Notes under the pieces: model-generated
Told to the model about the DNA's origin: nothing
What the model saw: the letters and a program-made list of their open reading frames with translations, nothing else
Databases searched by the model: none
From: Microcyclospora pomicola
Taxonomy: Eukaryota; Ascomycota; Dothideomycetes; Capnodiales
Length of the DNA stretch: 23,692 nucleotides
Direction: 5' to 3'
NCBI GenBank assembly: GCA_002786065.1
Contig: NHNY01000054.1
Span: 190-23,881, forward strand
Shown: in pieces, positions 323-18,345 of the stretch
How positions within the stretch are numbered: the stretch's first letter is position 1
How the letters are laid out: the number at the start of each line of letters is the position of its first letter
Position numbers and translations under genes: made by a program

Positions 323-546
323 GTCGTTGTTGCGAAGCTGCGATACCCGAAAACGACTGTCAAGCGCACGTTAGGGTATTCACAGACACATCTGGCGGAC
401 ACAAAATTGGAGAAGACAATGATCAAACAGCATGGTATTCAGCCCCAGCTGGCATAACTACTTGCATAGGACATGAGCCACCCAAACGCCAACTATCAGA
501 GAGCCAGGCGCGGACCCAGCGTTCCACATGCGCTCCTTATGGATGC
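323..546. other. Spacer between G1 pol and the antisense gene
   Basis: About 220 bp lie between the chromodomain frame's stop and the stop codon of the opposite-strand gene. The two frames therefore converge tail to tail. I see no further reading frame or obvious repeat in it. It presumably holds 3'-end signals for the antisense transcript. Confidence 0.4.
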
Positions 547-1435
547 TCAGGCATCGTCAAAACCACCAAAGTCCTCACTGGAGTCAGTGGTGCTGCCACC
601 TTCCTCATCACTCCCAGCTGTGTTTCTAGGGGTTCTAGCACCCGGCAGACCCAACTCTTGACGCGCACGTGCGGCGGCGATGGGGCGGGCAACGATCGGA
701 GCCTCGGCGGCGGCGCGGCGCTCGGCCAAACGGTCCATGGTCTCAGTCATCTATTTGCAGTGTTAGCATCGTGCGAGCGACGTGCGTGCATGGGGCGGAC
801 TTACGCCGAAGAGCGTGGCGTTCAAGTCACCCAGGCTGTTGTTGATGGCGACGTTGGAGGCGATCAAGCGACGCGTGTTTGCGTTGCTGATGCGCTGCTC
901 AGCCAGGATCAGGCGCAAGTAGTCTGCACTGGTGGTGGGGTTCCTGGTGGCTGCATTCACCTGCTGGCCCTGGCGTGCTGCGCTCAACCTGAGCGCCTGG
1001 AGCGAGATGGTGGCGGCTTTCTGGGCACGCGCAAGCTTCAAGCCTGTACGCTGGACAGCAGGGTCGTCCTTGCCTCTGGCACCATTGAGGGCAGCAACAG
1101 CTCTGTCATATCTCTCACGAAGGTGGTACAGACGCTCGTAGCGCCCGTACATCTCGGGAGGGATCTGTTCGAACGATTAGCGATGCACCTGCGCGACTCG
1201 CAAAGGAAAAACTCACCAAACCACAGCTGCGATGGCCAGACACACAGTGCTTGCACCTGGCTTCCTCAGGCTTGTTGCAGAGCTTGCTCTGCTTGGCAAT
1301 GGCGGAGAAGCACCTAGTGCAGGTGAGAATTTGAGGCTCAGGTGCGTCCTCACGTAGGTCGGCATCGCGCCACACGAAAGGCTCTGCGCGATTGACCTGG
1401 CGCTTGCTGATGTACTTGGGGAGACTGAAGATCAT
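547..1435 (-). CDS. Three-exon antisense gene inside G1; six-cysteine cluster protein, 260 aa, function unknown
   Basis: Exons are 1217-1435, 805-1164 and 547-750, all joining in phase 0 (73, 120 and 67 codons plus stop). Intron 1 (1165-1216, 52 nt) has a GTGAGT donor and a CAG acceptor. Intron 2 (751-804, 54 nt) has a GTAAGT donor, a GCTAAC branch site and a TAG acceptor. The start at 1435 lies in CCATCATGA. Residues 39-71 carry C-x2-C-x10-C-x7-C-x2-C-x6-C, close to a Zn2Cys6 binuclear cluster but with a longer first loop. Residues 75-190 look helical and charged, ending in IASNVAINNSLGDLNATLFG. The last 20 residues are acidic (SDEEGG, SSEDFGGFDDA). The gene runs opposite to the retroelement that contains it. 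Because the element's RNA is the other strand, these introns would not be spliced from it, which explains their survival. It may be related to fungal six-cysteine proteins of unknown function (DUF3716-like, from memory). Gene model: good. Function: unknown. Confidence 0.72.
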
Positions 1436-2099
1436 GATGGGCAATGAGATGCTGGTGCGTTGAACGTGCGTGCGATGGGTGTGATGATGGTGATGCAGGT
1501 ACGTTGCGAATGGACAGAAGAATGTGCCAAACAATCAGAAGGTGTGATGATGTTGTGGGAAGGAACTTCCTGGGAGGAAGTTTGAAGTTATAAACACAAC
1601 AACAACAACATCAGCCCTACCATCAGCGCAACGCGCGTCATACCTGCGCACAACAACAACAACGCGTTCGACGCGGCAACGCGTATCATAGCCTCACGAC
1701 GAGGTTTGGGACATGCACATGCAGACTACAGGCATTGCAGACATTGAGGAGACCGTCGATACAGGGGTGCACAACAAGCGACATGGATGCAGCAGCCTGC
1801 AGGCTCGAGGAGGTCTATCCCGGCTGCAGACTCGGGCACAAGGCTTGTCGAGGAACCGTTAGCTACACATGCGTGCGAGGCGCGATCGCGAAGCGCGTCG
1901 CACTCTACGCGTGTACTGCTCTCGTAGGCCCGAACTACTCCCTAAGGACTCTGACATGGCGAGCTCGTACTGAGCGAACGGCCGTCGCACATGCGTGCGA
2001 CGAGCGTTCGGGAGGCGACCGACTACCGCTTCGATCTCGGCTATCGTAGCTGCAGAATCACTATGTAGGAGACCTCTCTTATCCTAGGGACAGGATCTA
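1436..2099 (-). promoter_or_regulatory. Promoter and leader region of the G1 antisense gene
   Basis: Read on the - strand, a TATA-like GTTTATAAC (1587-1595) lies about 150 bp before the start codon. It is followed by a pyrimidine- and CAT-rich leader typical of fungal genes. Further upstream, 1605-1690 is rich in CAA triplets and has two ACGCGT boxes (1662-1667, 1679-1684). A perfect 13-bp direct repeat, CACATGCGTGCGA, occurs at 1866-1878 and 1988-2000. A + strand frame of 104 codons at 1735-2049 has no recognisable domain and I do not call it a gene. The promoter role is inferred from position and the TATA-like box. Confidence 0.4.
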
Positions 2100-2112
2100 G
2101 GGGGGAGGAGAG
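2100..2112 (+). other. Polypurine tract of G1
   Basis: GGGGGGAGGAGAG lies one base before the LTR start at 2114. This is the standard plus-strand primer site of an LTR retroelement and fixes the element's orientation as +. Confidence 0.75.
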
Positions 2113-2113
2113 T

Positions 2114-2329
2114 TGTAAGGCCCCTTTCCTACATGAAGTGAGGTTGAAGTCACGTGTCTCCAGTCTTGGCATGAGGCGACACTTCGGTGCGCGACCTGCG
2201 CACCTCGTACGCTTTATGGATTATTCTCGGTAGTAACTGTATCATACTATTACTCCCTTATTTCTGTGTACTACGCTATCCTTTGGCATCCAGAAGCTAC
2301 GCCCTAGTAGCCTATTGCTGCCCCTTACA
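2114..2329 (+). repeat. 3' LTR of G1 (216 bp)
   Basis: It begins TGTAAGGCCCC and ends GCCCCTTACA, so the ends form the TG...CA inverted repeat of an LTR (TGTAAGG/CCTTACA). A purine tract precedes it. The following sequence is transposase-like Fot1/pogo DNA, so the 5-bp target copy on this side would be ATATC. Its partner at the 5' LTR is outside the window, so the duplication cannot be checked here. Confidence 0.75.
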
Positions 2330-3434
2330 ATATCTCTAAAACTACCCTCCTTCGAAGAATCAATAGCTACCCTTTAAAGGAAGATTATACACCTAAGAAT
2401 AAGAGACTAAGCTTAGTTAAAGAGGAGGCTATAATATAATAGATTCTAAGGCTAGATAACTAAGGTTTATACCCTATAGTAGCTATTATTAAACAGATAG
2501 CAGACTTAATTTATACTATAAGGGGATTATAACCTATAGGTAAAAACTAGACTACTAACTTTATAAGAAGGACCCTAGTACTTAAGATTAGAATAAATAG
2601 GGTTTATAACTACTAGAGGAAGCAGTGTAAGGATATATAGCTAATTTAAGAGTAGTTCGAGCTTGTTAGGAATATAGTTATATAACATAGTATTATACTA
2701 GTAGATATATATAACTTTAATAAGACTAGCTTTTAGATAGGCTAAATAGCTACCTTAAGGGTTATTATATTAGTAGAAAGGTAAGGTAAGCTAAAGTAAA
2801 TTAGACTAACTAGTACAGAGTAGGTTATATTAATATAAGGTGCTAGTATAGATAGCTATATTATACTACCCTTTCTAATCTTTAAGAGGAAGGAATATAA
2901 TAGAGTATAGTTTAATAACTTCTCTTTAGACTAGCTAATTAGTATAAGCTCTAATAGCTAGACTTCTAATTAACTTAGCCTATAATAGATCTATTACTTT
3001 AAGAAGTATACAAAGGCAAGGATATAAGGCTCTAAAAGGCTTCTTATCCTTAATAACTATAGTAGCTATAAGACTATTAAGTTTATTAGCTTTTATAAGG
3101 ATTATAATATTATCCTCCTTTAGATACTACCTTATTCCTTATATATATTATAACTACTAGATGTTAGTTGTTTTAGCCCTTTAAAGAGGTTATTCTTAAA
3201 GTATAACTAGGCCTTAATTAAGAACTATATATTCTATATTTAAAGGACTGACTTTATTACTACTTTCTATACCTTATTTATTAAATCAATTATACTAGCT
3301 AATATTAAAGGAGGTTTTAGAGGCTTAGGGATATATCTATTTAATCTAGAGGTTGTGTTATTAACCCTTAACCTACTACTATAACTATTAAGTTAACTAT
3401 CTAGTTAAGGGTTATAGTAGCTACATATATTAAA
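2330..3434 (+). pseudogene. Fot1/pogo-type DDE transposase, RIP-eroded, left segment
   Basis: Very TA-rich sequence full of TAG and CTA, the outcome of heavy RIP. Through the decay a pogo/Fot1 transposase is recognisable on the + strand. ISKTTLLRRINSYPLKED resembles the end of the helix-turn-helix, about 2331-2390. DIYNFNKTSF near 2705-2735 resembles the first catalytic DIYNFDETGF block; the catalytic Asp is now Asn and a Gly is now Ser, both RIP-type changes. PFLIFKRKEYN is at about 2875. LLILNNYSSYKT near 3040 matches the second block (LLILDNHSSH), again Asp to Asn. LLDVSCFSPLKR near 3155-3190 matches the third block, Asp kept. Many in-frame stops replace Trp and Gln codons, so it is dead. 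The N-terminal part is cut off by G1 at 2329, and the C-terminal part resumes at 10626 beyond G2. Confidence 0.72.
3430..3434. repeat. Target-site duplication of G2, left copy
   Basis: TTAAA immediately before the LTR start at 3435 matches TTAAA at 10626-10630 just after the other LTR. Five bases is the usual duplication length for Ty3/gypsy integrases. Confidence 0.85.
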
Positions 3435-3600
3435 TGTCACGGGAGAGCTACGCATACGCAGAGGCTCGTTGTGGTATTTAATAAGTTCGATACAGGAGGG
3501 AGGCCTTTCCCTCTAGGAGTCCGGAGAGAAAGGGTCGGCTATACTAAGCCTAAAGCACTGGCTTCGCCAGTGCGCTACATTTAGGGCCGCGCCCTTTATA
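3435..3600 (-). repeat. 3' LTR of G2 (166 bp)
   Basis: Starts TGTCACGGGAGAG and ends GCGCCCTTTATA, where the partner LTR ends TTTACA. It pairs with 10460-10625 at equal length. A perfect 8-bp-stem hairpin, GCACTGGC-TTC-GCCAGTGC, lies at 3555-3573. One arm of the same hairpin is altered in the other LTR. Confidence 0.9.
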
Positions 3601-3620
3601 ATACCCCCCTCCCCCCGGCG
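3601..3620 (-). other. Polypurine tract of G2
   Basis: On the - strand a G-rich tract (GGGGGGAGGGGGG) abuts the LTR at 3600. It marks this LTR as the 3' one and the element as - strand. Confidence 0.8.
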
Positions 3621-4031
3621 AAAATCGAGCGGTTTCCGCACAAACGTGTTTCCTATTCCCACTGAAGACAGCCGTCTCGTTCGCACTAGTGACTGGGCGG
3701 TGATTTCCTTCCTCCACGACTACTGCGGGCCTTCCTCGACAAGCTCGTACAGGCTGCCTCTCCCGCTAGGTCGAGTTCTGTGCACGAAAGCCCGTGGTCC
3801 TTTCACCTAGCCTCGCTATTTATATAGAGCTTCTCTTTTATCCATATCGAATTCTGTGCGTAAAAGCCCGTATCCCCCGTCGCAATGTTCGCTGCCTATT
3901 CGCTCCCCTTCGTATTTCTACTTCGTGATAGACAGTCGAACGGTGTTCTAGCATGCGTGCTAGCCTTTCCCCCTCGTAGCCTAGAGCGAACTTCCTAGGT
4001 TACGAGGATTAGCTGTGATCGCTACGAAGTG
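3621..4031. other. Post-integrase region of G2, LTR-proximal part
   Basis: Between the purine tract and the tandem repeats I see no supported reading frame on either strand. There is a loose duplication of TCGA(G/A)TTCTGTGC..GAAAGCCCGT-like text at about 3772-3792 and 3848-3872. It lies upstream of the antisense relic and may be its promoter; this is inference from position. Confidence 0.3.
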
Positions 4032-4224
4032 TTTGCCCCGGGATCCTACGTGAAGCGCCGGCTGACTAGTCGGCTCTTTGTCTTTGACGCTATGTAAGCC
4101 TTACTTCATTTAGAGGGTGAAATTATAGGGTTTCGGCTTGCCGAGCTCTTTGTCCCGGAATCCTAAGTGAAGCGCCGGCTGACCGGTCGGCTCTTTGCCC
4201 TTAACACTATGTGAACTTTACTTC
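4032..4224 (+). repeat. Tandem repeat A in G2, two 76-bp copies
   Basis: Copies at 4032-4107 and 4149-4224 (117-bp period) share AAGCGCCGGCTGAC and end in TTACTTC. Each contains CCG-N10-CGG (4058-4073 and 4175-4190) around an 8-bp palindrome: GACTAGTC in copy 1, GACCGGTC in copy 2. Everted CGG triplets are a known type of Zn2Cys6 binding site. The repeats lie 0.4-0.6 kb before the six-cysteine relic on the same strand. Confidence 0.7.
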
Positions 4225-4227
4225 TTA

Positions 4228-4450
4228 TTGTTGTAGCTATTGTTAGCTACCCTTTGCGTCACCTAGTTACGATGACTCGGATTGCCCTTTGCTCGGAGCT
4301 AGCAACGTTATATGTGCCTGTATAGCTTCATTGTAACATCTTCTTTGTCGTGGCTATTGTCGGCCCCTTTCTGCGTTATCCGGTCACGATGACTCGGATC
4401 TCCCTTTGTTCGGGGCTAGTATATGAGTTTGTCGAGCTTCATTGTCACAT
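4228..4450 (+). repeat. Tandem repeat B in G2, two copies of about 110 bp
   Basis: Copies at about 4228-4339 and 4344-4450 share GGCTATTGT/AGCTATTGT-like starts, ACGATGACTCGGAT in the middle and AGCTTCATTGT-ACAT ends. They follow repeat A directly. Divergence between copies is partly RIP-like. A 99-codon + frame across the second copy is not supported as a gene. Confidence 0.6.
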
Positions 4451-4559
4451 TCACTTTCACTACTGCTGCCTTAGGGCCCTACTACCAGTGCATATTAACC
4501 TCTTTCCCTCCCTTCTTAGTAGTTCTTCTTCCTTTCTCTCTTTAACAACATTAAGCTTT

Positions 4560-4780
4560 AAGGCAAGTACCTATTCTTTAGTCAACAAACGTTTTCCTGC
4601 TACTAACGATCGGCTAGATGCCTCTAATCCACTGCGTCCGTTGCGCTAACCTTAGCAACGACTGCACGCCCCAAACTGTAAGTTTTCCGGTCCTTTTGTA
4701 CTAGTTCCTAGCTAATCTTTTGTAGGGTGATAAAACTCGATCTTGCTTAGGTTGCAATGCAGCTAGACACTATTGTGAGA
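4560..4780 (+). pseudogene. Relic of the antisense six-cysteine gene in G2
   Basis: On the + strand, opposite to pol, C-x2-C-x6-C is encoded at 4633-4665 (CVRCANLSNDC) and C-x2-C-x6-C at 4744-4776 (CLGCNAARHYC), in one frame. Between them 4678-4725 (48 nt) has a GTAAGT donor, a GCTAATC branch-like site and a TTTTGTAG acceptor. With that stretch as an intron the half-clusters lie about ten residues apart, which matches the Zn2Cys6 spacing. A pyrimidine-rich leader (about 4500-4560) precedes it, as in the G1 and G3 genes. Sequence beyond 4780 toward pol is too eroded to define the end. It is a fossil with several breaks. It is not a host gene, because it lies inside G2 between pol and the 3' LTR. 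Confidence 0.55.
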
Positions 4781-5425
4781 AGCTATAAGTATCCTCCGAG
4801 CTCCGGTCGAGAGTCGTCGCTAACCTCTCAAAGTCCAGCAATTGCTTACCTTACCTATGCTAGCTAGACAAGGTCTGTTAGAGTCAACCTATCGTACGTC
4901 CCTATTCTCCGCTCGTTTTTTATAGGCTAACGTTTGTATAGTCTAGCTGCTTATACAAAGCTCTAAAAAGTTCTCAAAGCTTAGAAAGCTTTGAAACCTC
5001 TGCAAGCAGAAGGCTTGCTTCCTCTGTAAGTTCGTTAGGCATCCGGTTCTTTTCAGTCGCTAACCCTTGTCCTTTTAGCCCTATAGCTTAGCAAGTCACT
5101 TCTACTGTTGCTGATGCCGTAGCAAACCAAGGTCAAGCGTAAGTTACTCGTCGCTCCTCGCTGCTTTTCGATCGCTAACACCTCTCTTAGTGCTAGTAGA
5201 GTTCCTGCTGCTCTTATAATTGGGCCTAGACGCCGCTAGGCTTAAATGCTCGGGGACCCGGTGCTTTTACGCCGGATCCCTATAAAGTAGTTTTTGTATG
5301 AAAGTTGCCTATGCCTTCTTAATTATCCAGTAACATGTAATTCCTAAAACGCCTGTTCCCGCCTTGTAACTCCTGTTCCCCGAGGCCCTTTACCCGGACT
5401 TCCGCCTCTTCTCCTAAGTAGCTCT
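4781..5425. other. Post-integrase region of G2, pol-proximal part
   Basis: This probably held the rest of the antisense gene, judging by the layout of G1 and G3. Short serine- and leucine-rich stretches occur on the + strand, but I cannot support any domain. No repeat or structural RNA is evident. Confidence 0.3.
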
Positions 5426-8400
5426 AGGCCTATCGTTTGTCTTAGGGTCTCTATACTTTGCTTCGAAACTGTCTATTGCCGTAGTGTCGGCTAGATTTTC
5501 CAGCGGCTCCTAGGTTAGTTAGTAGTGTCCGGCCTATTTTACTAGGACTTCCCTTGCTTTCTGTCTCCCTTTGCTCCTAGCGCACAGAATGCTTTCCACT
5601 TCCCACTCTTCATACGATTCGAATAGTACGGGTCCCGGTTAGTCGTTATCGGTCACCTGCCCCGGCAGTAGGTCGTTGCTAGCTGGCCTTAGCAAGTCGG
5701 TATAGAACACTAGGTGGATGTTGCTAGGAATACCACTCAACCGGACTAAGACCGGTAATAACACTTCGGCTACCGTGTACTTAGCGTGCCTCACATCTAA
5801 GCTCTTCTTTGGCCGATTCGTTTGGTAGTTTCTCAGGTCTAGCTAGACCTTATCGCCTTCCTAGTAGATTGGCGCTAGCGTCCGGTTCTTATTCGCGGAC
5901 TCCTCTTGTTTCTAGGCTGTCGTAGCTATGCTTGTTTAGCAAAGGTCTAAGATGTCCTTCATCCTTTTTACGAACACCCTAGCTCGGCTAAGAGCAGGCA
6001 ACGGTTGTCCGACCGAGGGCTCCGCGCTGAAAGCTACGGGCGACAGAGCATTGTACCCGTAGGTTGCGAAGAAAGGACTCATGCCAATTCCTGTATTATA
6101 ACGCCCGTTAAGCGCTAACTAGGCGGTGGGGAGCTAGTCTTTCTAGTCGGTTTGCTCCTAGTTAATAAAATTCCTTAGGTACGCTTGTACATCTTAGTTC
6201 AATCTTTCGGGGCTACCGTCCGTTTGCGGGTAGTACGCGGAGCTCAGTCTCTGCTTCACGCCGAGTAATATACAGAACTCTTTCTAGAAAGTGCTGGTCT
6301 AGTTAGTTCCTCTGTCGCTTGTAATAGCGCTAGGCATACTATGGTGTTTTACCTAGCAGTCTATGAACTTTTAGGCGCAGTCCTCCGCTTTTATACTGTG
6401 CATCGCTTCAAGCGCTACCTATTTACTCAGCCTGTCTTTAATAACCTAGAGGTATCGGTTCCCCCCGGAGTCTAGGAGGTCGGTCATAAAGTCCATCGAG
6501 ATCTCCTAGAAGAACCTGTCGGGAACCGGAAGGGGTCGCAGGAGGCTATGCTTGTGTTCCCTCTAGACCTTGTTCCTCCTACAGTGGTCGCAGTTTCGTA
6601 GAAACTGCCGTATGTGGCGAGATTGTAGGGGCCAGTAAAAGTCGCGTCCTAGTATCGATGCGGTAGAGTCCCTGCCTAGGTAACCGTACACTGGAGAGTC
6701 GTAGACGGTTTGAATAAGTCGGGTCCGGAGTACATCTACGAGGCGTGTCTCGGGCTCCGCTTCTTTTACGTCGGAGTCCGCTACAAAGGGGGCTCCTAGC
6801 ACCTATAGCTTGCCCCGATGCCGAAGGTGTCTATTTTGGTCGATGCTACAGTCCCTAGCTTAGACTTTAGCCTTCGTATCGCTTAGGAGTAAGCGGCATC
6901 CTGTCCTGATCGAGCAGGCGACGGCCTAGTAGACAGTGTCTTTCTCTAGAGCCGCCTGCTAGAGATCGTTTAAGTCCTGGTCTTAGAAGGGTCCTTTATC
7001 TTCCGGTGATGCGCCCGCGGCTCCTGTAGTCGTGTCGCTAGGCTCCCGCTGTTTGAGGTCGGTGATTTGGCTTACTTGTGTAGCTAAAAGCTGCACAGAC
7101 GTAGTAGCTACTACCACCCCCTCCCCGCCGGACTCCGGCCATGCAGGGACGCGTTCCGGTTCTAGGAATCGCCGGAATCTTAAGTATTTGTCGTCCTCCC
7201 TAAGCGTGTCCTGCTCTCTTCTTAATAAGGCATCCGGTATGATTGCTTCTGCTCCTAGGCGGTAAATCAGGGTGAACTGGAACTTGGATAATGTTTCATA
7301 CCACCGAATCTGTCTCTTAGACAGTTGCCTCTTTACTATAAAGTATTCGAGGTTCTTATGGTCCGTCTAGATTATGAAGGGTCTACAGGCCTTTAGCTTA
7401 GGGCCCTAGAACTTAAGGCAGGACACTATAGCTAGTATTTCCTTGTCATAGATGTCGTAGTTAATCTCGGCTTTGTTTAGCTTCTAACTAAAAAAGCCTA
7501 CAGGTCGCTAGACTCCGTCCCTTTCCTAGATAAGAGCGCCTCCTATCGCAAACCCGCTACAATCGGTTTCTAGGAACGTTAGAAGTTCCGGATCCTAATA
7601 GCTAAGTACCAGGGCGCTACAGAATTTGTCTCTTAGCTTCTCGAACGCTCTCTGTTCTAGCGTTCCCTAGTTAAACGGCACGCCTTTGCTAGTCAGCGCT
7701 GTCAAAGGTACGGCTATCTTCGAGTAGTTAGGGATAAACCCTCTATAGTAGTTAGCGAACCTAAGAAACCTCCTTACCTCTTTCTAGGTTTTAGGTCCTG
7801 CCTACTTCCGAACAGCTTCCACCTTTTCTTCGTCGGCTTTAACGCCTTTGCTATCGGCGTGTACTATAAAGCCTAAGTACTTGACTCTCTTCTAGGCAAA
7901 CTCGCTTTTCCCTAGGTCTAAGTACAGCCTACCGTCCTAAAGAGTCTAGAGGACGGTCCGAACCTTGCTAAAATAGTCTTCTCTCGACCCTGTGGAGTAA
8001 ATAATCACATTATCCATATATGCTGATACGAAGTCGTCTAGGTACTTCCGTAGCAAAGTGTTAATATAACGCTAGAAAGTGGCCAGGGCCTCTAACAACC
8101 CGAACAGACACACTAGCTACTCGAATGAGCCGAATCTAGTTCGAAAAGCCGTCTTATGTTTGTAACCGGACGCCATCCGAATCTGATAGAACGCCAAGAC
8201 TACGTCCACCTTCGTGATCTACCTAGCTCCTGTTAGGTTGCGTAAGGTCTCTAGTATTAGTAGCAGCAGATACCGGTCTTGCTTCGTGATTGCGTTTAAC
8301 GCCCGATAATCACAGCAGAACCGCAGCCCTCCCCTAGGCTTCTTCACGAACAGTACAGGGGCCGCGGCCTCTAACATTGTTAGGCGGATATAGCCCTTTT

Positions 8401-9110
8401 CTAGTAGGTTATCTAATAACTTACGTAGGACTAGGAGTTCTTCCTTCGACATTCTATATAACGGGCCCTAAGGCAATAGGGGCAGCGTCCCGTCCGCTTG
8501 CGGGCGGATGTCTATCTAGTGGTTAACCCCCGGTCTATAGGGGGCCAGCTTTTCCGCTTCCCTGCGACAAAACAGCGGGGCTATATCTTTAAGCTCCGCT
8601 AGGAGCTTTTCTTAGAGCTCCCCTATCGTTAGGTAGCTCTTCGTCTTTAGAGCCTTCTCGACGTCCGCGCTCGACGTAGCGGCAAGCGTTAGCATGTTGC
8701 CGCGATCCGCGCGTTCTAAGTAGTTCCTGCCTTCGGGCACCTACTGTCTCGATCTCCTATAATAGAACCGGCGCTTTTCGGGCGCCGTCCTGACGTTGTT
8801 ATAGGCCTTCTAAGGGTTCCCTAGGATTAGAGGGAATGCTAGCCCAGGTACTACATAAGTGTATACTATTTATCGGAATCTAGCAACATCTAGCCGGAAA
8901 GCGACTACTCCTTCGATATTCAAGCCTTGTATTAAGGCTAAGGCGCCTATCACAGCCCGGGACTTATAACTTACATAGCTAAGTCCGAGACCTCTCGCTA
9001 GGTCTTCGTTAATCGTAGCATAACATTAGCATCCTTCGTTAATAAGTGCAGAGGTTCCGACGTTCTTTTCGAGGACTACGTCTGTAAATACAAGGCGTCT
9101 ATTCATTTTC
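5426..9110 (-). pseudogene. G2 pol: protease, RT, RNase H, integrase, chromodomain
   Basis: Read on the - strand. A protease-like stretch lies at about 9105-8760 (TSALINEGC, then PLILGNP). Reverse transcriptase runs from about 8450 ([19 protein letters not shown]) with its active-site region near 8020-7985 (AYMDNVIIYS). RNase H is near 7575-7510 (ETDCSGFAIGGAL) and the TDHKNLEYF block near 7370-7340. The integrase zinc-binding domain is at 6800-6565 (ends RNCDHCRRNK). The integrase core begins near 6500 (EISMDFMTDLLDSGGNRYL), with the YYPQTDG block near 6200. A chromodomain-like stretch lies at about 5615-5430 (EEWEVESILCARSKGRQ). The domain order is that of a chromovirus. The gene is broken many times by RIP-type change and cannot be expressed. 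Confidence 0.85.
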
Positions 9111-10448
9111 CCTCTAACTTCTTTCTACTTCTTTACTAATGTTCTATATACTCTTACTTCCTACCTTCGAACAAGAGCTACTCTTTTCCCTGTCCTAATC
9201 GTTCAGAGTCCGACCCCTTGTTATTAGTGTCTAGTAGGAGGGCGCTAGTAGCATTGATGGTAGTTAGTTGTACTGCTAGGGCATAGGGACATTCGCGAAT
9301 GCGGTGCCCTACGGCTCCACACCGGAAGCAAAGCTTGTTCCCCTAGCGTCTCTCCCTTTCCGCAGTGTCCACCTATTTCGCCCTCTGTTTTCCGGCGCTA
9401 GGGCGCTCTCTGTGCCCTTTGCTCCGCTCTTCGCGCGAGCGCCTGCGTTCTCCTACAGTTCGAGTCGGGGCTATTAGGGTATCCCCGTCCGCATCTACCC
9501 TAACGGTAGAGGGCCTATACGACCTCGTAGTTACTGTCGTCGAGGTGCCGGACCCCCTTCCCCTCTCCCTGATCTACCTCTTGTTCGCTGCTTTAAATTG
9601 GTCAGTAGTTTCGAGGTTCGTTATGATTCTCTCGACTTCCTTAGAGAACACGTAGTAGTTATCCGTCTTTGCGACGGATGCCGTGTATATTTTCGCGGGG
9701 TTAGAGAAGGTGTTCTTTAGGTAGCTAATCTTGGTGGCGTTAGTCTAACTCTCCCCGCCCGCGCTAAGTAGGAGGCCGTCGAATTGTAGCTAGTGCTCGT
9801 GCTATAGTTGCCCTACTAAGTAGCGTAAGTAGGTAAGCTGTTCTAAGGCCTTAGATTGTTCGTTGCTGTCCGCGAAAACGTTCTCGAGCTGCGCGAAAAA
9901 GGCCTCAGGGTCCTTACCGTTTAACGCGCTTCCCTTTTCCTAGAAATGACGCATCCTTGCTCTTTTACGGGCTAGGAGAGTGTTATAGATAGCATCCTAG
10001 TAGTACTCGATAGATAGCATCGGTTTTGTCCCGGATCGCACTCGGTAGGAGCTTCTTAACCTTAGAAGATAATCCCTAAATGTTTCTGCCCTTCTATCCT
10101 AGGTAGGAGGCTTCTAGTCCCTAGGTCCCGTCGGTTCGCGTCCGGCGCTCGACGCAGTTGTCGAGGAAAGGGTGTAGAGTAGGGTCCTAAGTAGGGCATT
10201 CGTAGGAGTCTCCTCTGCTAGCTCCGTTTCGAGTACCGGTTGGTTACGGCTGGCTTCAGATCGGTAGAGAGCGGCTCGAGTCTGAGCTAGCTCCGCCTCT
10301 ATCTGTTGTTGCCTCGTATATAGCTAATCGAATGCCAGTCTCATTTCTACGATCTCTGGGTTTGTTGTACTAGAGTCCGTATTCTCGCTGCTTATCGGGG
10401 TACGGTCGCCGTCCGACGTGAAACTCGCGGATAGCGCTAGTAACATAG
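9111..10448 (-). pseudogene. G2 gag, RIP-eroded
   Basis: Lies between the 5' LTR/primer site and the protease. The clearest landmark is a CCHC zinc knuckle near 9335-9270, CFRCGAVGHRIREC, with exact C-x2-C-x4-H-x4-C spacing. A basic, arginine-rich stretch (about 9450-9350) precedes it. The upstream capsid part is recognisable only by position. It is a fossil with several breaks. Confidence 0.7.
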
Positions 10449-10459
10449 ATCGAACTTAA
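10449..10459 (-). other. Candidate self-priming primer-binding site of G2
   Basis: The 11 bases next to the 5' LTR read TTAAGTTCGAT on the - strand. They do not look like the 3' end of a tRNA. Nine of them are complementary to a stretch inside the LTR (inverted copy AAGTTCGAT at 10508-10516 on the + strand, also in the left LTR). Tf1/sushi-group chromoviruses prime with the 5' end of their own RNA annealed next to the LTR, and this geometry fits. Functional assignment is inference. Confidence 0.5.
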
Positions 10460-10625
10460 TGTCTCGGGAGAGCTACGTATACGCAGAGGCTCGTTGTAGT
10501 ATTCAACAAGTTCGATATAGGAGGGAGGCCTTTCCCTCTAGGAGTCCGGAGAGAAAGGGTCGGCTATGCTAAGCCCAAAGTACTAGCTTCGCCAGTGCGC
10601 TACATTTAGGGCCGCGCCCTTTACA
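10460..10625 (-). repeat. 5' LTR of G2 (166 bp)
   Basis: Starts TGTCTCGGGAGAG and ends GCGCCCTTTACA on the + strand. It aligns without gaps to 3435-3600 and is followed by the second TTAAA target copy at 10626-10630. Confidence 0.9.
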
Positions 10626-11149
10626 TTAAAGACCTTAAGGGAGGTCAATTAATAGACTATATTAATTAACTTAAGGCTTTAAAACTACATAGATAGCTTA
10701 CTAACTCCTATACTTAAGGCAATTAACTAGCTTTTAAAGGGAGCTTAAATTATAGCTATATTAGCTGCCCTTCTTTAAACTTAAGTTTAGGATCTATAAT
10801 ATGTTAATAAGGCCTTCTATATTAGAAAGAAGAGAAAGAAGGTGCCTTTTAGATTAGAACAACTATTAACAGTAGAATAAGTGTAGTTAATACTAGTTAA
10901 GGTAGTTAGCAATAAGATAATAGAGGGTACTATAAAGCTAGCTAGAAAGCTACTAACCTACACTATATATAGTATAGAAGGCTATACTAGAAGATCTTAT
11001 AAACAACTACTGCCTACTATATTATGATCAATATATTTCAATTTAAAGCCAATCTATCTAGTGGTTGTTGTGCAATCAATAGTTGAAGCCACATCCATTG
11101 CTGCAGCTAGACCGGACCCTTGTGTGGACCGGACCCTTGTGGTTTACGT
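10626..11149 (+). pseudogene. Fot1/pogo transposon, right segment with candidate right terminus
   Basis: Continues the transposase interrupted at 3434. It is the same strand and the same TA-rich decay, with KEEKEGAF and RTTINSRISVVNT remnants like the charged C-terminus of Fot1-type transposases. RIP-type composition stops near 11030, and the last 110 bp are ordinary in composition. A 14-bp direct repeat, ACCGGACCCTTGTG, at 11111-11124 and 11128-11141 is followed by GTTTACGT and then TA at 11150-11151. I propose this as the right terminus plus TA target. The left terminus is beyond the window, so the inverted repeat cannot be confirmed. In-frame stops show that the transposase is dead. Confidence 0.6.
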
Positions 11150-11151
11150 TA

Positions 11152-11769
11152 TCGAGTGAGAGATACATGTAGTTCGACGAAGCTTCAGAAGGCCAGACAG
11201 CATCCTCCGTACAAAACAACATGATTTCGCAGGTGCCGAGTGAACTGTTACACATTCTACTACGCTAATAAGGTCTACGTGGAGATGCTTCCTCTATGCA
11301 CTTCAATTACCTGAATCCAGTGCGAGCTGAACAGTAAAGAAAGCATCGATCCGCCATGATGATGATGTGTTCCTCTTGCATGTGAATATAAGAATGTCAT
11401 ATGCACCATTTGCAAGACAGCTCAGTATTCACTTCCATGCAACAATTGATAAGTGACTGGACAAGAACATGGAGAAGGGAATATACAAGGGACATGTCTT
11501 GATTCCATCATCATCGTGAAGTAAGGTAAGGTAGAAGTACAGCAGCAAACGGCGAAAGCGCCAGGGAAAACAACCTTTGCCTGAAGAAGCGGTCGACCCG
11601 ACCGAACCCCTTGCGTGAAACTCCCAAATACCAGACCCAAGATGACCCGACTATGTTCGTGGAAACGCCGCACCGCCACATAATCACCCAGTCCAACTCC
11701 ATTGCCTTCCGTAGCCCTCAGCCAAGCGTTTTGTGATTGAAGCGAAGCAGGAAAGAAACTCAACGGCAC
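11152..11769. other. Intergenic region downstream of the MAP65 gene
   Basis: About 620 bp of host-like sequence between the transposon end and the MAP65 stop codon. It presumably contains that gene's 3' UTR. Small frames on the - strand here read on from the UTR and have no domain. I see no RNA gene. Confidence 0.5.
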
Positions 11770-14192
11770 TTAATAGCTGTCACCAATGTCCCCATCGTCC
11801 GTCCAGCCGCCATCGCTAGCATGTACCGGCCGCAGTCCTTCTTCTGCGATAGGGCTTTCACGCATCCGCTTCTGGACGCCGAGTTGCGCGTTGGCGGTCC
11901 CCGGCCTCTTGAGCGGCGGCTGTTGACGAAGTTGTTGTGCCTTGATCTTAGCATAATACGCGTCTGTCGCATCGGCTTCGTCAATCTCAGAGTTGTCGGT
12001 GTATGTCTCCCAGTTCTCGCTGCCGCTGATATGTGACCCCGACATGATCGAGGATGTGTTGCTGGTTTGGCGTGATGGTGGTGCTACAGGGTAATCGTGT
12101 CTGGTCATCGGCCGGGAAGAGTTAGTGGTGTAAGCGGCAGATGAAGCATATGAGTCCTGCGATCGCGCGTATGTGGGTCGTGGGGGAGGCTGCATCGTCG
12201 AGTTCTGAAGTGCGCGATAGCTATGTCCGTGGTCACTGTACGGATCCTCAGGCTCTACATTCCGAATGACGCTTGTGCTACGGTCCAGACCATGGCGGTC
12301 GTTGTCCTCATCATGGACTGATGCTGGAGCGGTGGCAGGCATGAAGATGTCCTTCATCTTTGGCGGGGGAGCATGCGGTGGTCCAGTACGTCCGCGTAGT
12401 GTGCTATTGGGGTCATCGATGGGATGCTGGCTCTTGACGACTCGGACACGCCTTTCGGGGGAGTTGTTTCCGTCTCGCATCGCGCTCATTGGTAGTCGAG
12501 AGGCACCCGGGATCTTCGACGGACTCAGGCTGGCAGGGGCACCCATCGTCGTGGATGACATGGTAGATGCGGCAGCGGACGCCATCGCACTTCTTCCATA
12601 TGCCGCCGTTGGTGTCTTACTACGTGACGGTGGAGCACCTCTCACAGTGCCAGCTCTGCTTTGCGCTGTGGCCCTTCCAGCACTCTTTGGGGCTTCCCGC
12701 GCAGGCGCAAGTGCGTTCGGAGTCTTGCTTCGAGGAGGTGGTGCCCTTGTCTGAGCTGAGTCTAGCTCATCCAGATATCGTTGGCCATGCACGCAGAATG
12801 GGCGACCGTACTCATCCTCCCAAGCCTCAAGCGTTCTACGTAGATCAGCTTCGACCTTGGGAAGATCCTTCGTGATTCTCTTGCGTTGCTTTTCTTCTCT
12901 CAACAGCTTTCCAGGATCCCGCTTCTCGCCCTTGCCACCTTTGCCCATCAGCCTACTCGCGTCTTGACTGCTTTTCTCTAGGTCTTGACGATCCTGTATC
13001 AGACTCCTGTGCTTGTCGACTGCGGCAAGAATGGGAGCTCGCTGCTCCTTGAGAGCTTCCAGTCGTTCGATCTCGTGTTCGTGAGCGGAGTAAAGAGCGT
13101 CAGAATAGACATCAGAGAACGCAGGCGTAAAATCCAGCATTTCCTCCTCAGAAAAGTACATGGCGTCCCACAAAGCCTGCAGCTTGAAGCGCGCGTCTTC
13201 CACGAAGAGGTGGAGATTCTGCCTCTTCAACTCGTTCAGTCGACTCAGCTCGTCCTCGAATTCGTTGATCGTCCGTAGCCCGCAACCTCGATTCGACGCC
13301 AAGAATTGCTTGCGCTCACTTTCATCTACACCAAGTCGATCCCATAGACTTTCGATGTTGATGCGAAGCTCCTTCAGCCGCCGTTCCCGCTGTTGCTTTT
13401 CGGCGATAAGCTTCTCCCGCCGTGAGGACAGCCTTTTCAAATCGTCCGCATGTAGACCCAGCTGTTCGGGCGACTCGTGTGCGTATTGTACCACCTGACT
13501 ATCAACCTGCGCCTGTGGTGTTCCAAGTTCGGACCACAAGCTGATGATCTCGCGTGCGGTTTGTGACACGCAAGCGACGCGTTTGTTATATTCCTCGTAA
13601 ACACGAGTGAATTCGGCATCCAGCTTCGCCACATACGTCGGCGATAGATCGAAGTTCGGCGGTATCGTCGCATTCGGCGAGGTCGGCGGTAGTTTGATGG
13701 AGACAAAGGCCGGCTCCAGATGTGATGCATATGACTCCAAAGCCTCGACTAGTTTCTTCACCTGCTCGTAGCGCTCACGGTGCAGCTTGGCGATGGTGCG
13801 GTGCTTCTCCTTGAGCGCCTGCATGCAGTCGAGCAGGGGGTATGTGATTTTCAATCCATCATTCTGCGCCTCATCATCATCATTCGGCCGTGAATCGTCC
13901 AGTGATCGTCCCATTTGTCGAATCGTCTTGATCAGTCTTTGTGCCTCTTCGGTGAGCTCATGCTTCTCCTTCGCGACGAGGTTGAGCTGGTTGTGTAGTG
14001 TTTCGGAGAGTGCTGAGAACAGCTGGCAGAGAGGTCAGCTTGCGCATGGACGATGTAGGTGCTCTACTCATGGCTCCTTACCTCCGACTCACGAGAGTCG
14101 CGTTCATGGCTGGGCACGCCAATCTCGTCAAAGAAGCCGTGCAGGCGCTCGATGATGGTCGTGACTTGCTGGCTGAGATATGAAGTGTCCAT
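11770..14192 (-). CDS. ase1: Microtubule-bundling protein of the MAP65/Ase1/PRC1 family, 787 aa
   Basis: Homodimeric proteins of this family cross-link antiparallel microtubules in the anaphase spindle midzone and help recruit kinesins. Exon 1 is 14082-14192 (37 codons, MDTSYLSQQVTTIIERLHGF). Intron 1 (14023-14081, 59 nt) has GTAAGG and CAG ends. Exon 2 is 11770-14022. The join is in phase 0 and gives SHERDSRESE then LFSALSETLH. Residues 1-310 are coiled-coil and spectrin-like (dimerisation rod). Residues about 320-460 hold the conserved microtubule-binding block: LWDAMYFSEEEM, HEHEIERLEALKEQR, RDPGKLLREEKQRKR (about 405-419), LPKVEADLRRTLEAWEDEYG and PFCVHGQRYL. The remainder is Ser/Pro/Arg-rich, disordered and basic, with S/T-P sites of the kind Cdk1 phosphorylates in yeast homologues. 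Length is normal (S. pombe Ase1 is 731 aa). It diverges from the heme-oxygenase-like gene. No damage is seen. Family call is secure; the symbol is by orthology. Confidence 0.93.
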
Positions 14193-14973
14193 GGTGAGCG
14201 AAGAGCTGCCAGCAGCAGATGCAACCCGACCAATGGCTCTAGACCATTCACGGTGGAAGACGTGTTGCGGTGTTGAGTACCGCGACGCGATTTCACAACA
14301 ATATGCTGGGGAGTGCTTGTTAAGACGTGTGATATGCCGAATACACCGAGAGAATGTCGCGCGAACGAGTGGTCTGTGGAATGACAAAGGCGATGTCTTA
14401 GAGCAAGCGAATTAGATGTATGTGCACGCAGCAGGAGTCCAGTACATGACCTGCAATGTGATGTGCTGAAGTGCTATGGTAGCGGCACGTCCAACGCCTT
14501 TTCCCGTGGCGCCAAAGCAACGGCTGTTGTCATGGACGACCATCCAACAGCCACGTGATAGCATACGACATCTTATCTGATCACTGATCTGTTTCACTTT
14601 TCGAAGCTTTTGCCTAAAAGGTGGCGTTGATGGCGTTTGCCTGCGTGACCTCTGCTGCCAACATGCCTCGACTCTTGTCATGATTGAGGTGTTATGTAGT
14701 CACTCGGGTGCCTAACATTAGAACCCTTTGTTGTTGCAGTCACGCTCCTGCATGATCGTTTGCTCACACGCGTAGCGCATGGGGGCTTTGATGAAATAGT
14801 TGCTGCTGTTCTGACTCAGGATGTGCCCTTTTCAAATACAATCAAGTGCACCCACCCTTACTGACGAGCAATTCGCTCGCTTGTCTCGAAGAGTCCAACA
14901 GAAGTTGTAACCGGCTGTCAACAACAAAGTGCCTTGGGGAAGCGAAGTTGATCGACCATTTGATTCTCACGCC
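14193..14973. promoter_or_regulatory. Divergent intergenic promoter region
   Basis: About 780 bp separate the start codons of the MAP65 gene (-) and the heme-oxygenase-like gene (+), so both promoters lie here. No clear TATA box or known operator stands out. Frames in this interval lack domain support. Confidence 0.55.
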
Positions 14974-15867
14974 ATGGCTCTCGGCGAAACACCATCATTA
15001 CGATCTCCGCCACCAGGGGCTTCAGTACCATCACCTCTCCTTTCCGCAGAGATAAACGCAGCAACCCAAAAACAGCACATCGTCCTCAATCGCTTGATCA
15101 TCGACCGGCTCGGTCTCGCACTACCGCCTCGCGCACAAGATCCCACACTTCTCGGATACGGTCTTGCGGCTTTTGCGCAGCTCTACAACATTTTCGAAGA
15201 AGAATGGTCGAGCATCGAACAACGCCGGGACGAGCGAGACGACCGCGTTGGTGCGAACGAGCACTCCGCAGACGTCTTGTCATATCTAGCCACATTACGC
15301 CCAGCCGGACTCCATCGCTCACATCGCCTCCGACGAGACCTGGAGCACCTTTCGAGACGATGCGGGAAGAACTTCATTCAGCTGATGCCGAGCGTGGACC
15401 CGCGCGGCGAGATCCGATCGCTGTTGCGGACGAAACCTCACGTCCACCTCGCGTATGCGTGGGTGATGTACATGGCCATCTTCTCGGGCGGCCGCTGGAT
15501 CCGGCAACAGCTTGCGGAGGCCGGCGAGCAGTTCTGGATCGGTCAGATGAGGGTGCCGGGGGATGAGAAGTTCGACGCTTTCGGTGCAGGATACTCGTTT
15601 CTATCCTTCGACTCTGTGGAGGATGGAGAGGACATCAAGGCGTTGTTCAAGGCCCGGCTGGTGCAAGCCGATGAGTTGTTGAGTGCTGCCGAACGGCGAG
15701 ACGTGATCGAGGCTGCACAGCGGCTGTTCGGGGATTGTATCGATCTGATCGGGCAGCTCGATCGGATGGTGGCGCGGCGGCGGACGATGGAGATGCTGGT
15801 TTCGTTGATCGGGCCTGTCCTTGTGGTTGTGGTATTGGTTTGGATGCTGCAGTTTCGTGGATTTTGA
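14974..15867 (+). CDS. Heme-oxygenase-like protein with C-terminal membrane anchor, 297 aa
   Basis: A single exon starts at 14974 in a strong context (GCCATGG). Residues about 25-265 have the all-helical heme oxygenase fold pattern. T31-x3-H35 (ATQKQHIVLNRLI) matches the N-terminal helix with the proximal heme-ligand His. HLAYAWVMYMAIFSGGRWIR (159-178) matches the distal helix that in HO-1 reads RYLGDLSGGQ. There the catalytic Gly-Asp pair (D140 of human HO-1) is Ala-Ile, while SGG is kept. Residues 274-293 (LVSLIGPVLVVVVLVWMLQF) form one hydrophobic tail anchor, as in ER-bound HO-1, with a short lumenal end. True heme oxygenases use O2 and electrons from P450 reductase to open heme to biliverdin, CO and iron. 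With the distal Asp missing, heme binding is plausible but activity is doubtful. It diverges from the MAP65 gene. Family call is good; function is uncertain. Confidence 0.78.
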   Translation: MALGETPSLRSPPPGASVPSPLLSAEINAATQKQHIVLNRLIIDRLGLALPPRAQDPTLLGYGLAAFAQLYNIFEEEWSSIEQRRDERDDRVGANEHSADVLSYLATLRPAGLHRSHRLRRDLEHLSRRCGKNFIQLMPSVDPRGEIRSLLRTKPHVHLAYAWVMYMAIFSGGRWIRQQLAEAGEQFWIGQMRVPGDEKFDAFGAGYSFLSFDSVEDGEDIKALFKARLVQADELLSAAERRDVIEAAQRLFGDCIDLIGQLDRMVARRRTMEMLVSLIGPVLVVVVLVWMLQFRGF

Positions 15868-16745
15868 TGCATGACTTCAAGCGGGCATGATAGCATTGCA
15901 TGGCGGTGGACTATTAGATGCATACGAACATATAGATCAAGTCAGTAACAGTCCGAGGTGACCCATGATTGGGTCTTCTCTACTGTGCAGACTACGTGTC
16001 AAAGTGCGACTTTCAAGTCGTTGAATCACCTCTTGACGGGGTGGTGCCGCCTTGACATCGTAAGGATGAAGCACATCCAGCTGCTTGTAGAAGGATCTTT
16101 TCCGGGTAGCACTGCATATATGCACAGTGAAAAGATCAAAGTACACGTATCGAACGAATGGACGGTCACTTCGCTTACAGACCACATGCAGCCAGTATGT
16201 ATGTAGGTTTCATACGACTTTGCACAAGCATTTCAATGATGACTGCAGCACGCAGATCCGCAACAGCTGAAATGCATGTGCAGATCTTATCTCTGCTACT
16301 GTACGTCTGCACACATGCAGTCAAGCGAAGCGAGAGGATGTGGGGTGGTGCCCTCGAATTCACCTGATCCGGCATGCCGCAGCATGCTCTTCTCGGTTCG
16401 GGGATCGGCCGCTTGTGGGGGTGGCTGTCCGATCGTGGCGGGCGACGGCGGTGGGCGGAGAGATGCAGTGTTACCAGTGGACTGTATGGCTGGCGGATCG
16501 GATGACGTGAGGGATCGTGCATACCTTACATGCAGGAGGGGATAGAGTATGCAGGGTCGAGACACCGCTACGACGGAGTGTTATCCCACTGGCTACTGGT
16601 GATAGCGAAGGGGGTTACAGTATATCTGCTGGTCGTGTGTGTGGTGGATTCGGTCATTACTCCGTTCTACTGTCCCGGCATGATGATAACCCGAGCGCGT
16701 GACCGGTCATGCACGGCCGTGAAAGAATATTCCGAGGGTGCGTGC
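15868..16745. other. Intergenic host sequence between the heme-oxygenase-like gene and G3
   Basis: About 880 bp of CpG-containing sequence. Several short overlapping frames occur on both strands, but none has a domain, intron signals or biased composition. I see no tRNA or repeat. The CpG-rich character ends near 16745, which is my best estimate of the host/G3 border. Confidence 0.45.
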
Positions 16746-16849
16746 CTCAGGAAGAAGATCTTCCTGCACAAGGGATTGTTTTCTACATAACTGACTGGTC
16801 ACGTGTGCTCTACATCACGTGTTCCATCTGATCAGNGATCATTCTCACA
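16746..16849 (-). repeat. 3' LTR of G3, inner end clear, outer end uncertain
   Basis: The inner end reads ATTCTCACA on the + strand (TGTGAGAAT on the element's strand) and stops one base before the purine tract. The segment holds two CACGTG hexamers and a near-palindrome TGATCAGNGATCA containing the one ambiguous base. The left limit is only a composition change. The true LTR may start elsewhere. Confidence 0.4.
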
Positions 16850-16862
16850 TCCTCCCCTACCA
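16850..16862 (-). other. Polypurine tract of G3
   Basis: TCCTCCCCTACC on the + strand is GGTAGGGGAGGA on the element strand, directly inside the LTR end. It confirms the - orientation given by gag and pol. Confidence 0.55.
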
Positions 16863-17376
16863 AGATCTCTCAACACCTGGTGAGAGGGTGTCATTCATGG
16901 CTTAATGTGGCCTTCATGGAGTGAATGGCAGTCCATCACTTCACTTGTAGCCTCTCACAAGCCTTCAAACAAAGAAAATCCTTCAGTAATCCCTAGTGAA
17001 AATGACCATCTCATGCCATTTCAGATTCACTCAAGTCAATGGCATGACCTCCAAGAGGGGCACATGGCCATCACTTTTCACTTCAGAAGGCCTTATGCCT
17101 TCACTTCAGTGCCTTGTGACACCTTCATTCCCCCAATTGATCAGCAGATCCTCAACCAAACCTCAGGGGTTAGTGCCTAATGTGTCCTCAGGCTGGCAAC
17201 AAGGTCCATATAGTCTGTGACCTTCCCACCAATCCTCCATCTCTTTTACATCAACAACATCTTCCACTTGATCAACCTTGACAACAACAATCTCCTTCTT
17301 CTTGACCATCATCACCTTCAACTGCCTCAACAGCCTTCAAACCACCTTCTTCCTCACCAAACAATCCCTAGCCATC
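16863..17376 (+). promoter_or_regulatory. Upstream region and leader of the G3 antisense gene
   Basis: About 510 bp without CpG. From 17217 to the start codon it is a pyrimidine- and CAA-rich leader (CAACAACATCTTCC, CTCCTTCTTCTTGACC), typical of fungal 5' UTRs. A CATATAG box near 17207 is a possible TATA element. Frames reading through this interval lack ATG starts in good context and I do not call them. Confidence 0.4.
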
Positions 17377-18345
17377 ATGTCTTTCTCTCCAATCAACACT
17401 CCATCCAGCTCTAGGATCTTGGTACCAGTTGCATCTTCTAACACCAACACTGCTGGGGTCAATATCACCAAAGCCAACATTTTGGTGGAATTCAAGAAGA
17501 TCAGGAAGTGGAGCTTGGGTATGCTGGTGCAGTTCTTCAACATTTTGAGAGCTGATGGTCCAAAGACTGGAATGGGGGCTCAGTGGGAGTGTTTTCTGGA
17601 TGTTGCAAATGCCAGCCCTGCTGGCTCTGGACCATTGAGGTTGACAGCCCTTTTGGAGTTCAACCCCAACAAGGATACCTTTGCTGGATCATTCTCCCAG
17701 TATTCCTTGGTGGCAATGGGTATTGAAGCCAGTTATGGAAGGACCAGGCATACCAATGATGCTTGTGCAAAGTGTGCTAAGGGAACTGCCAACAAGAAGT
17801 TCAAGAATTGCACCACAGTCACTGGTCTCAGTGGGAAGGTTGTGGCATATGGAGCTTGTTCCAACTGTCTGCTCACCAACAAGTGGTGGGAATGTTCCTT
17901 GGTCTCCAAAACCACTCTCAAGAACAACAACAGGAATCCAGATGGCTCAAGCAAGGGCAACAAGAGAGCCAGGGCTTCCATGAGTCCACCATTGAGAGGT
18001 CAGAGATCCAGGAGTCACAGCTTTGGTAACAATGCCAACTTCTCTGGTCAATTCAATCAGCCTCAGCCTGAGGGTATGGCTGTTTCAGGGCCAACAATGA
18101 GACCTGCACCAACTGGCCTTCACATCAGGATCCCTGTTGCTTCCCCAGCTGATACCACCAATGGCAGGTTTTGGATTGATGTGATGAACAGAGTCACTCA
18201 GTTCCAATCTGCCTTGGCCAGCAATTTAGCAGCCATCAATGCCTCCAATGGCCCTCAGGATCTCAACAACATGTTTGGGGCTCCTGACATTCATGCTGAT
18301 GATGTGGAGCTTTCTAGGATTGTGGAGGAGGAGGAAGATGAGTGA
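17377..18345 (+). CDS. Antisense six-cysteine gene inside G3, 322 aa, function unknown
   Basis: A continuous frame from ATG at 17377 (CCATCATGT context) to a stop at 18345. It is on the strand opposite to pol and ends 188 bp short of the pol stop, tail to tail. Residues 130-173 carry C-x2-C-x11-C-x15-C-x2-C-x8-C, resembling the fungal six-cysteine DUF3716-type pattern (CAKC...FKNC...GACSNC...WECS; identification from memory). Residues 30-60 (FKKIRKWSLGMLVQFFNI) look helical. Residues 195-215 are basic and serine-rich (NKRARASMSPPLRGQRSR), a plausible nuclear signal. Residues 280-301 read ALASNLAAINAS then GPQDLNNMFG, like the end of exon 2 of the G1 antisense gene. The tail is acidic (VEEEEDE). 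It shares G3's CpG depletion, so it has long resided in the element. A zinc-binding nuclear protein is the most I would infer. Confidence 0.72.
   Translation: MSFSPINTPSSSRILVPVASSNTNTAGVNITKANILVEFKKIRKWSLGMLVQFFNILRADGPKTGMGAQWECFLDVANASPAGSGPLRLTALLEFNPNKDTFAGSFSQYSLVAMGIEASYGRTRHTNDACAKCAKGTANKKFKNCTTVTGLSGKVVAYGACSNCLLTNKWWECSLVSKTTLKNNNRNPDGSSKGNKRARASMSPPLRGQRSRSHSFGNNANFSGQFNQPQPEGMAVSGPTMRPAPTGLHIRIPVASPADTTNGRFWIDVMNRVTQFQSALASNLAAINASNGPQDLNNMFGAPDIHADDVELSRIVEEEEDE

Follow-up and report, generated by a model that had tools for sequence, protein, structure and literature searches.

Antisense six-cysteine genes between pol and the 3' LTR in several Ty3/gypsy families of the fungus Microcyclospora pomicola

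Several families of Ty3/gypsy retrotransposons in the genome of Microcyclospora pomicola carry, between pol and the 3' long terminal repeat (LTR), a small gene that is read against gag-pol and encodes a protein with a cluster of six cysteines. The stretch of DNA analysed here (the window; 23,692 nucleotides, G000:C50:190-23881) contains three such elements, called G1, G2 and G3, besides the host genes ASE1/MAP65 and haem oxygenase, and searches of its own genome covered 23.4 Mb in 58 contigs. A preliminary description of the same DNA had assigned to each of the three elements an opposite-strand six-cysteine gene in this slot; both the gene structures and the LTRs have been confirmed, and the phenomenon is real and wider in the genome than was seen at that time. 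On balance, and with a modest degree of confidence, we think that these are resident antisense accessory genes encoding nuclear zinc-binding regulators of the elements, which would have been acquired more than once and exchanged with the host at least once.

Antisense genes in the three elements of the window

G1 is truncated by the contig start, since the window begins at base 190 of contig C50, and its remaining features are the following.

17-322, plus strand: 3' end of G1 pol with a chromodomain (PF00385, E=2.8e-11), the remaining pol lying beyond the contig start
1217-1435, minus strand: exon 1 of the G1 antisense gene, with the ATG at 1435 and all six cysteines; 55% identical homologue P0001
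805-1164, minus strand: exon 2 of the G1 antisense gene, in the spliced reading
547-750, minus strand: exon 3 of the G1 antisense gene, acidic tail, stop at 547
2115-2330, plus strand: G1 3' LTR, with 41 genome matches and 11 LTR-to-LTR spans

The gene (1435-547, minus strand) is convergent with the plus-strand chromodomain frame and gives a product of 260 amino acids (aa) from its three exons, which are separated by short canonical introns of 52 nt (GTGAGT..CAG) and 54 nt (GTAAGT..TAG). Its cysteines follow the spacing C-x2-C-x10-C-x7-C-x2-C-x6-C. Immediately 5' of the 3' LTR, a purine-rich tract can be recognised by eye at about 2099-2114.

The gene of G2 survives as a relic, within an element whose two LTRs form a direct repeat.

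3433-3603, minus strand: G2 3' LTR, direct repeat D1 with 10458-10628 (93%); pol on the minus strand
10458-10628, minus strand: G2 5' LTR, partner in direct repeat D1
4618-4677, plus strand: exon 1 of the G2 antisense relic, ATG at 4618, first three cysteines
4726-4784, plus strand: exon 2 of the G2 antisense relic, last three cysteines, exon end read by eye

The relic had been placed from about 4560, which is slightly early for a reading that starts at the ATG at 4618, and the relic itself is real. Across its intron (4678-4725, GTAAGT..TAG) the cysteines read C-x2-C-x6-C-x12-C-x2-C-x6-C, and a second donor follows exon 2 at about 4785, being intact in copy L051. The four other G2 copies that span the relic (L049-L052) align to it without gaps and keep both GTAAGT and the AG acceptor, while carrying stops and Cys-to-Tyr changes.

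G3 has an antisense product of 322 aa, encoded by a single exon, and its pol is open.

16720-16849, minus strand: G3 3' LTR, with LTR matches elsewhere in the genome, boundaries read by eye
17377-18345, plus strand: G3 antisense gene, single exon, 322 aa, DUF3716 domain, six cysteines at 17764-17895
18534-22610, minus strand: G3 pol with protease, reverse transcriptase (RT), RNase H and integrase, from frame and Pfam
22595-23692, minus strand: G3 gag with a CCHC knuckle, continuing past the window end, from frame and Pfam

Here, too, pol (minus strand, 22610-18534) and the plus-strand antisense gene are convergent. The protein matches the Pfam family DUF3716 (PF12511) with 29.5 bits (cut-off 22, E=7.1e-07), and its cysteines are spaced C-x2-C-x11-C-x15-C-x2-C-x8-C. 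A purine-rich tract of the minus strand lies at about 16850-16862, just inside the 3' LTR (by eye); within this LTR, an N at about 16836 is shared by the copy on C38, other copies having C or T. From the end of pol to the 3' LTR there are about 1.79 kb in G1 and about 1.68 kb in G3 (LTR ends by eye, supported by genome matches), in line with the 1.7-1.8 kb first proposed for the post-integrase interval. Also as first proposed, two elements have a chromodomain (G1, and G2 as detected in copy L050) and none is reported for G3 pol in the Pfam scan.

Open frames prove little in GC-rich DNA, and a 341-codon sense frame (292-1317, plus strand) overlaps the entire G1 antisense gene, of whose coding sequence it is probably a shadow; one could thus suppose that the antisense genes are chance frames in a long non-coding tail. 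We consider this very improbable. The six frames of the window contain two instances of a strict six-cysteine pattern, exactly at G1 and G3 (G2 escapes it, being split by an intron), whereas 200 Markov-resampled windows contained 0.03 patterns on average and 1 at most. Moreover, the DUF3716 match is above cut-off, P0001 and a locus described below, L067, are homologous to the antisense frame of G1, and the splice dinucleotides are kept in all 17 other G1 copies, so the chance-frame reading was rejected.

Copies and further families in the genome

Used as a query, the post-pol region of G1 found 25 pieces in the genome, 23 of which were used (two of 30-41 bp were omitted), and a 3' LTR adjoins 21 of these 23. 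The gene region is present in 11/11 LTR-to-LTR spans of 5-14 kb (eight of 7.16-7.32 kb, one of 6.7 kb and two of 12.7 kb) and in 7/7 long G3 matches, both counts being among the best candidates listed in the genome searches; copies without the gene, which would have spoken against the preliminary description, were not found among them. In all 17 other G1 copies, the lengths of exons 1 and 2 (219, 360) and of the introns (52, 54) are kept, together with the GT/AG ends. As to G3, the 969 bp of the gene are identical in another three copies, which have the 1358-codon pol frame open, and three older ones are 81-85% alike, gapless and with stops. An artefact of single copies was rejected. The identical G3 copies lie at or close to contig ends on C50, C36 and C30, so that recent elements probably interrupt the assembly and are too few in it.

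That genes of this kind sit in dissimilar elements, and travel with their families, holds beyond the window. Eleven post-integrase stretches of other elements were fetched (L056-L064, L084, L085), and antisense six-cysteine genes were found in L056, L057, L060, L064 and L061, the last being recognised by phmmer. Own-genome searches added 10 places of what we call the X-type and 5 of the L057-type. Scored against the list of RTs, 42 places in four groups gave 31 antisense and downstream of an RT, 2 same-strand and 9 without RT. The distance between RT and antisense gene is nearly fixed: 3.21 kb in 5/6 of the G3 group, 2.34 kb in all four L057-type places having an RT, 2.32-2.50 kb in nine X-type places and mostly 3.29-3.43 kb in G1. 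One of the two same-strand scores is the G1 copy of the window, for which the RT found is that of G2, since G1 pol is cut by the contig start; at the other (C9:9554), a different RT is nearest, and one on the minus strand is found at a distance of 3295 bp (C9:13121).

X-type proteins from dissimilar loci are homologous (L087 to L086 E=3.2e-9, L090 4.6e-7, L060 5.3e-4). The G1-, X- and DUF3716-types, which were the types covered by the profile comparison, are not detectably related (hhalign probabilities of 1.2, 0.6 and 0.4% with profiles of 2-3 sequences), and a common ancestor of these three has no support. Between an ancient and a repeatedly acquired gene, as the preliminary description had put it, repeated acquisition fits better, the matter being unsettled. 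As to a single clade of gene-bearing families, the deep branching of the RT tree is weak, and the group of C14/C44/C5 (no gene in L084 and L085) is placed among gene bearers; the DNA after integrase at C53, C14:412 kb and C10:42 kb is left aside in this reading.

A frame of another sort was met in L063 (2377-2901, minus strand, contig C11): it is stop-free, combines a cluster of six cysteines with a leucine-rich tail and gives no significant Pfam match, and the integrase-core gene beside it is unlike gypsy by eye.

Mutational damage of the copies

Relative to the window copies, 1276 of 1400 differences in G1 and 483 of 497 in G3 are changes of C-to-T type, of which 1095 and 450, respectively, stand in CpA context. 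By its signature, this pattern is repeat-induced point mutation (RIP). It is found in 17/17 other G1 copies and in the three old G3 copies, and it accounts both for the stops, by way of CAG to TAG, and for the replacement of Cys by Tyr. Since nearly all differences are of RIP type and the remainder are too few, the comparison of non-synonymous and synonymous rates (dN/dS) within the genome is blocked. In a host with RIP-type mutation of this strength a counter-defence gene would pay, and the antisense product might be an anti-silencing or anti-RIP factor that shields the element from host genome defence; however, the copies that carry the gene are heavily damaged all the same, and we regard such a role as quite unlikely.

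Two observations on base composition belong here. The AT-rich DNA between G1 and G2 (2331-3432; GC 0.28, CpG observed/expected 0.10) is probably heavily RIP-mutated. In G3, CpG is absent from the antisense gene and from 16850-17376, with 4 in the 4.1 kb of pol and 2 in the 1.1 kb of gag; the observed/expected ratio is 0.00-0.03, versus about 1.08 in nearby host genes and about 1 in G1 and G2. This scarcity may come from long residence in a CpG-mutating host or from horizontal transfer.

Relatives outside the elements

The protein search with G1 gave one match among 4713 candidates, P0001, with 55% identity over 201 residues, and a search with alignment A1 gave the same single match in the best 8000 candidates scored. 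P0001 is annotated as a protein of Quercus suber. It is probably fungal in origin, because the cork oak genome is heavily contaminated, 7955 fungal-specific proteins having been selected from it in a 2024 paper (PMC10831095). The search with the G3 antisense protein found no relatives among 1226 candidates; likewise, viral contigs had no match to the G3 antisense protein, G3 pol or A1, and bacterial and archaeal genome contigs none to A1.

Searching back with P0001 led to a stop-free place in the genome at C10:410384, the locus L067. It is single-copy, conserves all six cysteines of G1 (pairwise E=1e-16) and has its first intron at the same residue as intron 1 of G1, between an invariant Leu and Ile; its second intron position and last exon are a guess. 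L067 is flanked by genes with SNase and haloacid-dehalogenase domains, the nearest listed RT on its contig is more than 300 kb off, and blastn and tblastx find no other similarity between its locus and the window. The similarity of P0001 and L067 is independent protein evidence that supports the antisense frame of G1. For the G3 type, a DUF3716 gene on C58 (L001) is above cut-off, intron-bearing and single-copy, and every listed RT is over 50 kb away; the frame beside it has a sub-threshold flavin-monooxygenase match. Finally, the X-type peptide L086 has a weak match (E=0.019) at G000:C1:1863430-1863645 (plus strand), within an open frame of 260 codons that is possibly another host relative; no listed RT is closer to it than 450 kb.

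The preliminary description had held that unlinked single-copy host genes of the same kind would count against it; this applies in part, such relatives existing as L067 for G1 and L001 for G3, besides the element-borne copies. They may stem from capture of a host gene by the element or from takeover of an element gene by the host; an intron-bearing antisense gene can move both ways. One might argue from these relatives that the elements simply captured host genes, carried as passengers with no part in the element life cycle. This is hard to reconcile with the presence of the gene region in every G1 span and long G3 match listed, and comparable genes in the same slot of dissimilar families would be hard to explain if they were useless, which makes the passenger explanation improbable to us. 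A further reading, which we hold to be unlikely, is that fungal gypsy elements maintain antisense zinc-cluster regulators and that the host domesticated one of them, so that the locus at C10:410 kb, with the DUF3716 gene on C58 as a possible second case, would now control element transcription or silencing in trans.

Comparison with known systems

HBZ of human T-cell leukaemia virus type 1 (HTLV-1) is a bZIP protein of a retro-element, and its gene lies in antisense close to the 3' LTR. The genes described here share that position, whereas no bZIP was found for G1 or G3 among Pfam matches up to E=10.

Closer parallels exist in fungi and plants. According to the title of Zhao et al. 2011 (Virology 417:248), as cited in PMC7264820, PMC4227169 and PMC8365987, brtn is an additional antisense gene of the Boty-like elements of Botrytis cinerea, so that the claim of a feature undescribed in fungi does not stand. 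A 2020 review (PMC7264820) assigns the antisense gene of Boty, in Botrytis cinerea and Sclerotinia sclerotiorum, to the interval from pol to the 3' LTR and to the same class as the plant aORF-3R; a Monilinia transcript is reported to resemble BRTN (63%; PMC5987419), and additional open reading frames of unknown function are marked among fungal and spikemoss elements in PMC2864245. Like the elements described here, Boty is a fungal gypsy element with an extra antisense gene between pol and the 3' LTR, and like G1 and G2 it has a chromodomain (PMC7264820, PMC4227169, PMC8365987). The likeness is one of arrangement; no protein named BRTN was among the matches of the G3, G1 and A1 protein searches.

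The plant aORF-3R genes (maize Grande gene23, rice RIRE2, Silene Retand, PvRetro13) occupy the same slot and strand and, in the review text, occur in most copies of a family, have no known function and, for Grande, are reported to localise to the nucleus (PMC7264820). With this class, brtn included, the present genes share the slot between pol and the 3' LTR, the strand opposite to gag-pol and presence in most family copies. They differ in that two types have host relatives, whereas the same text gives no similar sequences outside elements for the plant genes (PMC7264820). The antisense arrangement is already known in fungi and plants, and the present case varies a type that has been published. 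Its apparently new aspects are the breadth within one genome, the six-cysteine content and a host homologue with matching structure; the shared intron position of this homologue is the most interesting new fact. No paper on six-cysteine antisense genes of fungal gypsy elements was recognised from titles and abstract openings in a literature search whose coverage left out most subscription journals.

Possible function of the antisense proteins

The G3 antisense protein and the host gene L001 are above the cut-off of DUF3716, and the G1, P0001 and X-type peptides have no match to it. The Pfam entry of this family states no function, and no paper naming it was found in the same literature search. 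NCBIfam gave no match; among solved structures the best E was 0.23 for the G3 antisense protein, with none for L086. The six cysteines themselves suggest zinc binding. The spacing in the X-type and G2 resembles that of the Zn(2)-Cys(6) family of GAL4 type (C-x2-C-x6-C-x8..12-C-x2-C-x6/7-C). Against PF00172 (cut-off 21), L086 scores 17.2 bits as a whole and 19.5 bits for a 42-aa piece, and L087 scores 15.8 bits; of ten cysteine-preserving shuffles of L086, two score at all, with 13.3 and 12.8 bits. Spacing and score together hint at a GAL4-like module in the X-type, all scores being below the threshold for family membership. A zinc-cluster regulator, as the preliminary description had suggested, is a plausible idea for these proteins, and a nuclear regulator is favoured, with moderate confidence, by the cysteines, the X-type spacing and the PF00172 score.

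Each element would thus carry a resident accessory gene transcribed against its genomic RNA. To judge from the anatomy, it would be a transcription unit of its own that begins within the element, with a putative promoter in the 0.5-0.7 kb between the antisense start codon and the 3' LTR. Its product would be a small protein whose module of six cysteines probably binds zinc. This protein may bind DNA or chromatin in the nucleus and so regulate either transcription from the LTR of its own element or host silencing, much as a transcription factor encoded by the element itself would do. Since the gene is antisense, its introns would stay in the genomic RNA, and the intron-bearing gene would outlast each round of retrotransposition. 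Gypsy families of Microcyclospora pomicola would have acquired such genes more than once, and at least the G1 type would have been exchanged with the host in one direction or the other.

It may instead be the antisense RNA itself that matters, convergent transcription giving double-stranded RNA with the genomic transcript, so that copy number is tuned by RNA silencing. The antisense genes do run towards pol, stopping about 190-230 bp short of it, and this role has been proposed for the plant antisense frames in the 2020 review (PMC7264820). Such a role needs no conserved cysteines, splice sites or amino-acid similarity, all of which are seen in G1, P0001 and L067, and we rate it as a minor possibility.

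Several results weigh against protein regulators. The PF00172 scores of the X-type are sub-threshold, and G1, G3, L088 and L090 have no match to this family. Six of the 11 post-integrase stretches (L058, L059, L062, L063, L084 and L085) have no such gene in a gypsy context, so either not every family needs one or it has decayed there. An early stop interrupts the gene in 17/17 other G1 copies, 13 of which have it at codon 13, the early part being unsure in copy L024b, whose first 94 bases are unmatched. Selection on the G1 protein is therefore not demonstrable within the genome. Unique transversions in G1 comprise 24 non-synonymous, 5 synonymous and 1 stop, a non-synonymous to synonymous ratio of 1.13 with no sign of constraint, which we read as post-mortem change, the copies being RIP-damaged.

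Conclusions

Antisense genes between pol and the 3' LTR are known and have no agreed function, and those of plants have no relatives outside elements. We think that several gypsy families with cysteine-rich genes, together with a single-copy host relative, make Microcyclospora pomicola a tractable system for this class. If it is true that the proteins regulate their elements, they would be a counterpart, in eukaryotic retrotransposons, of the regulatory genes of retroviruses, with gene flow between parasite and host.

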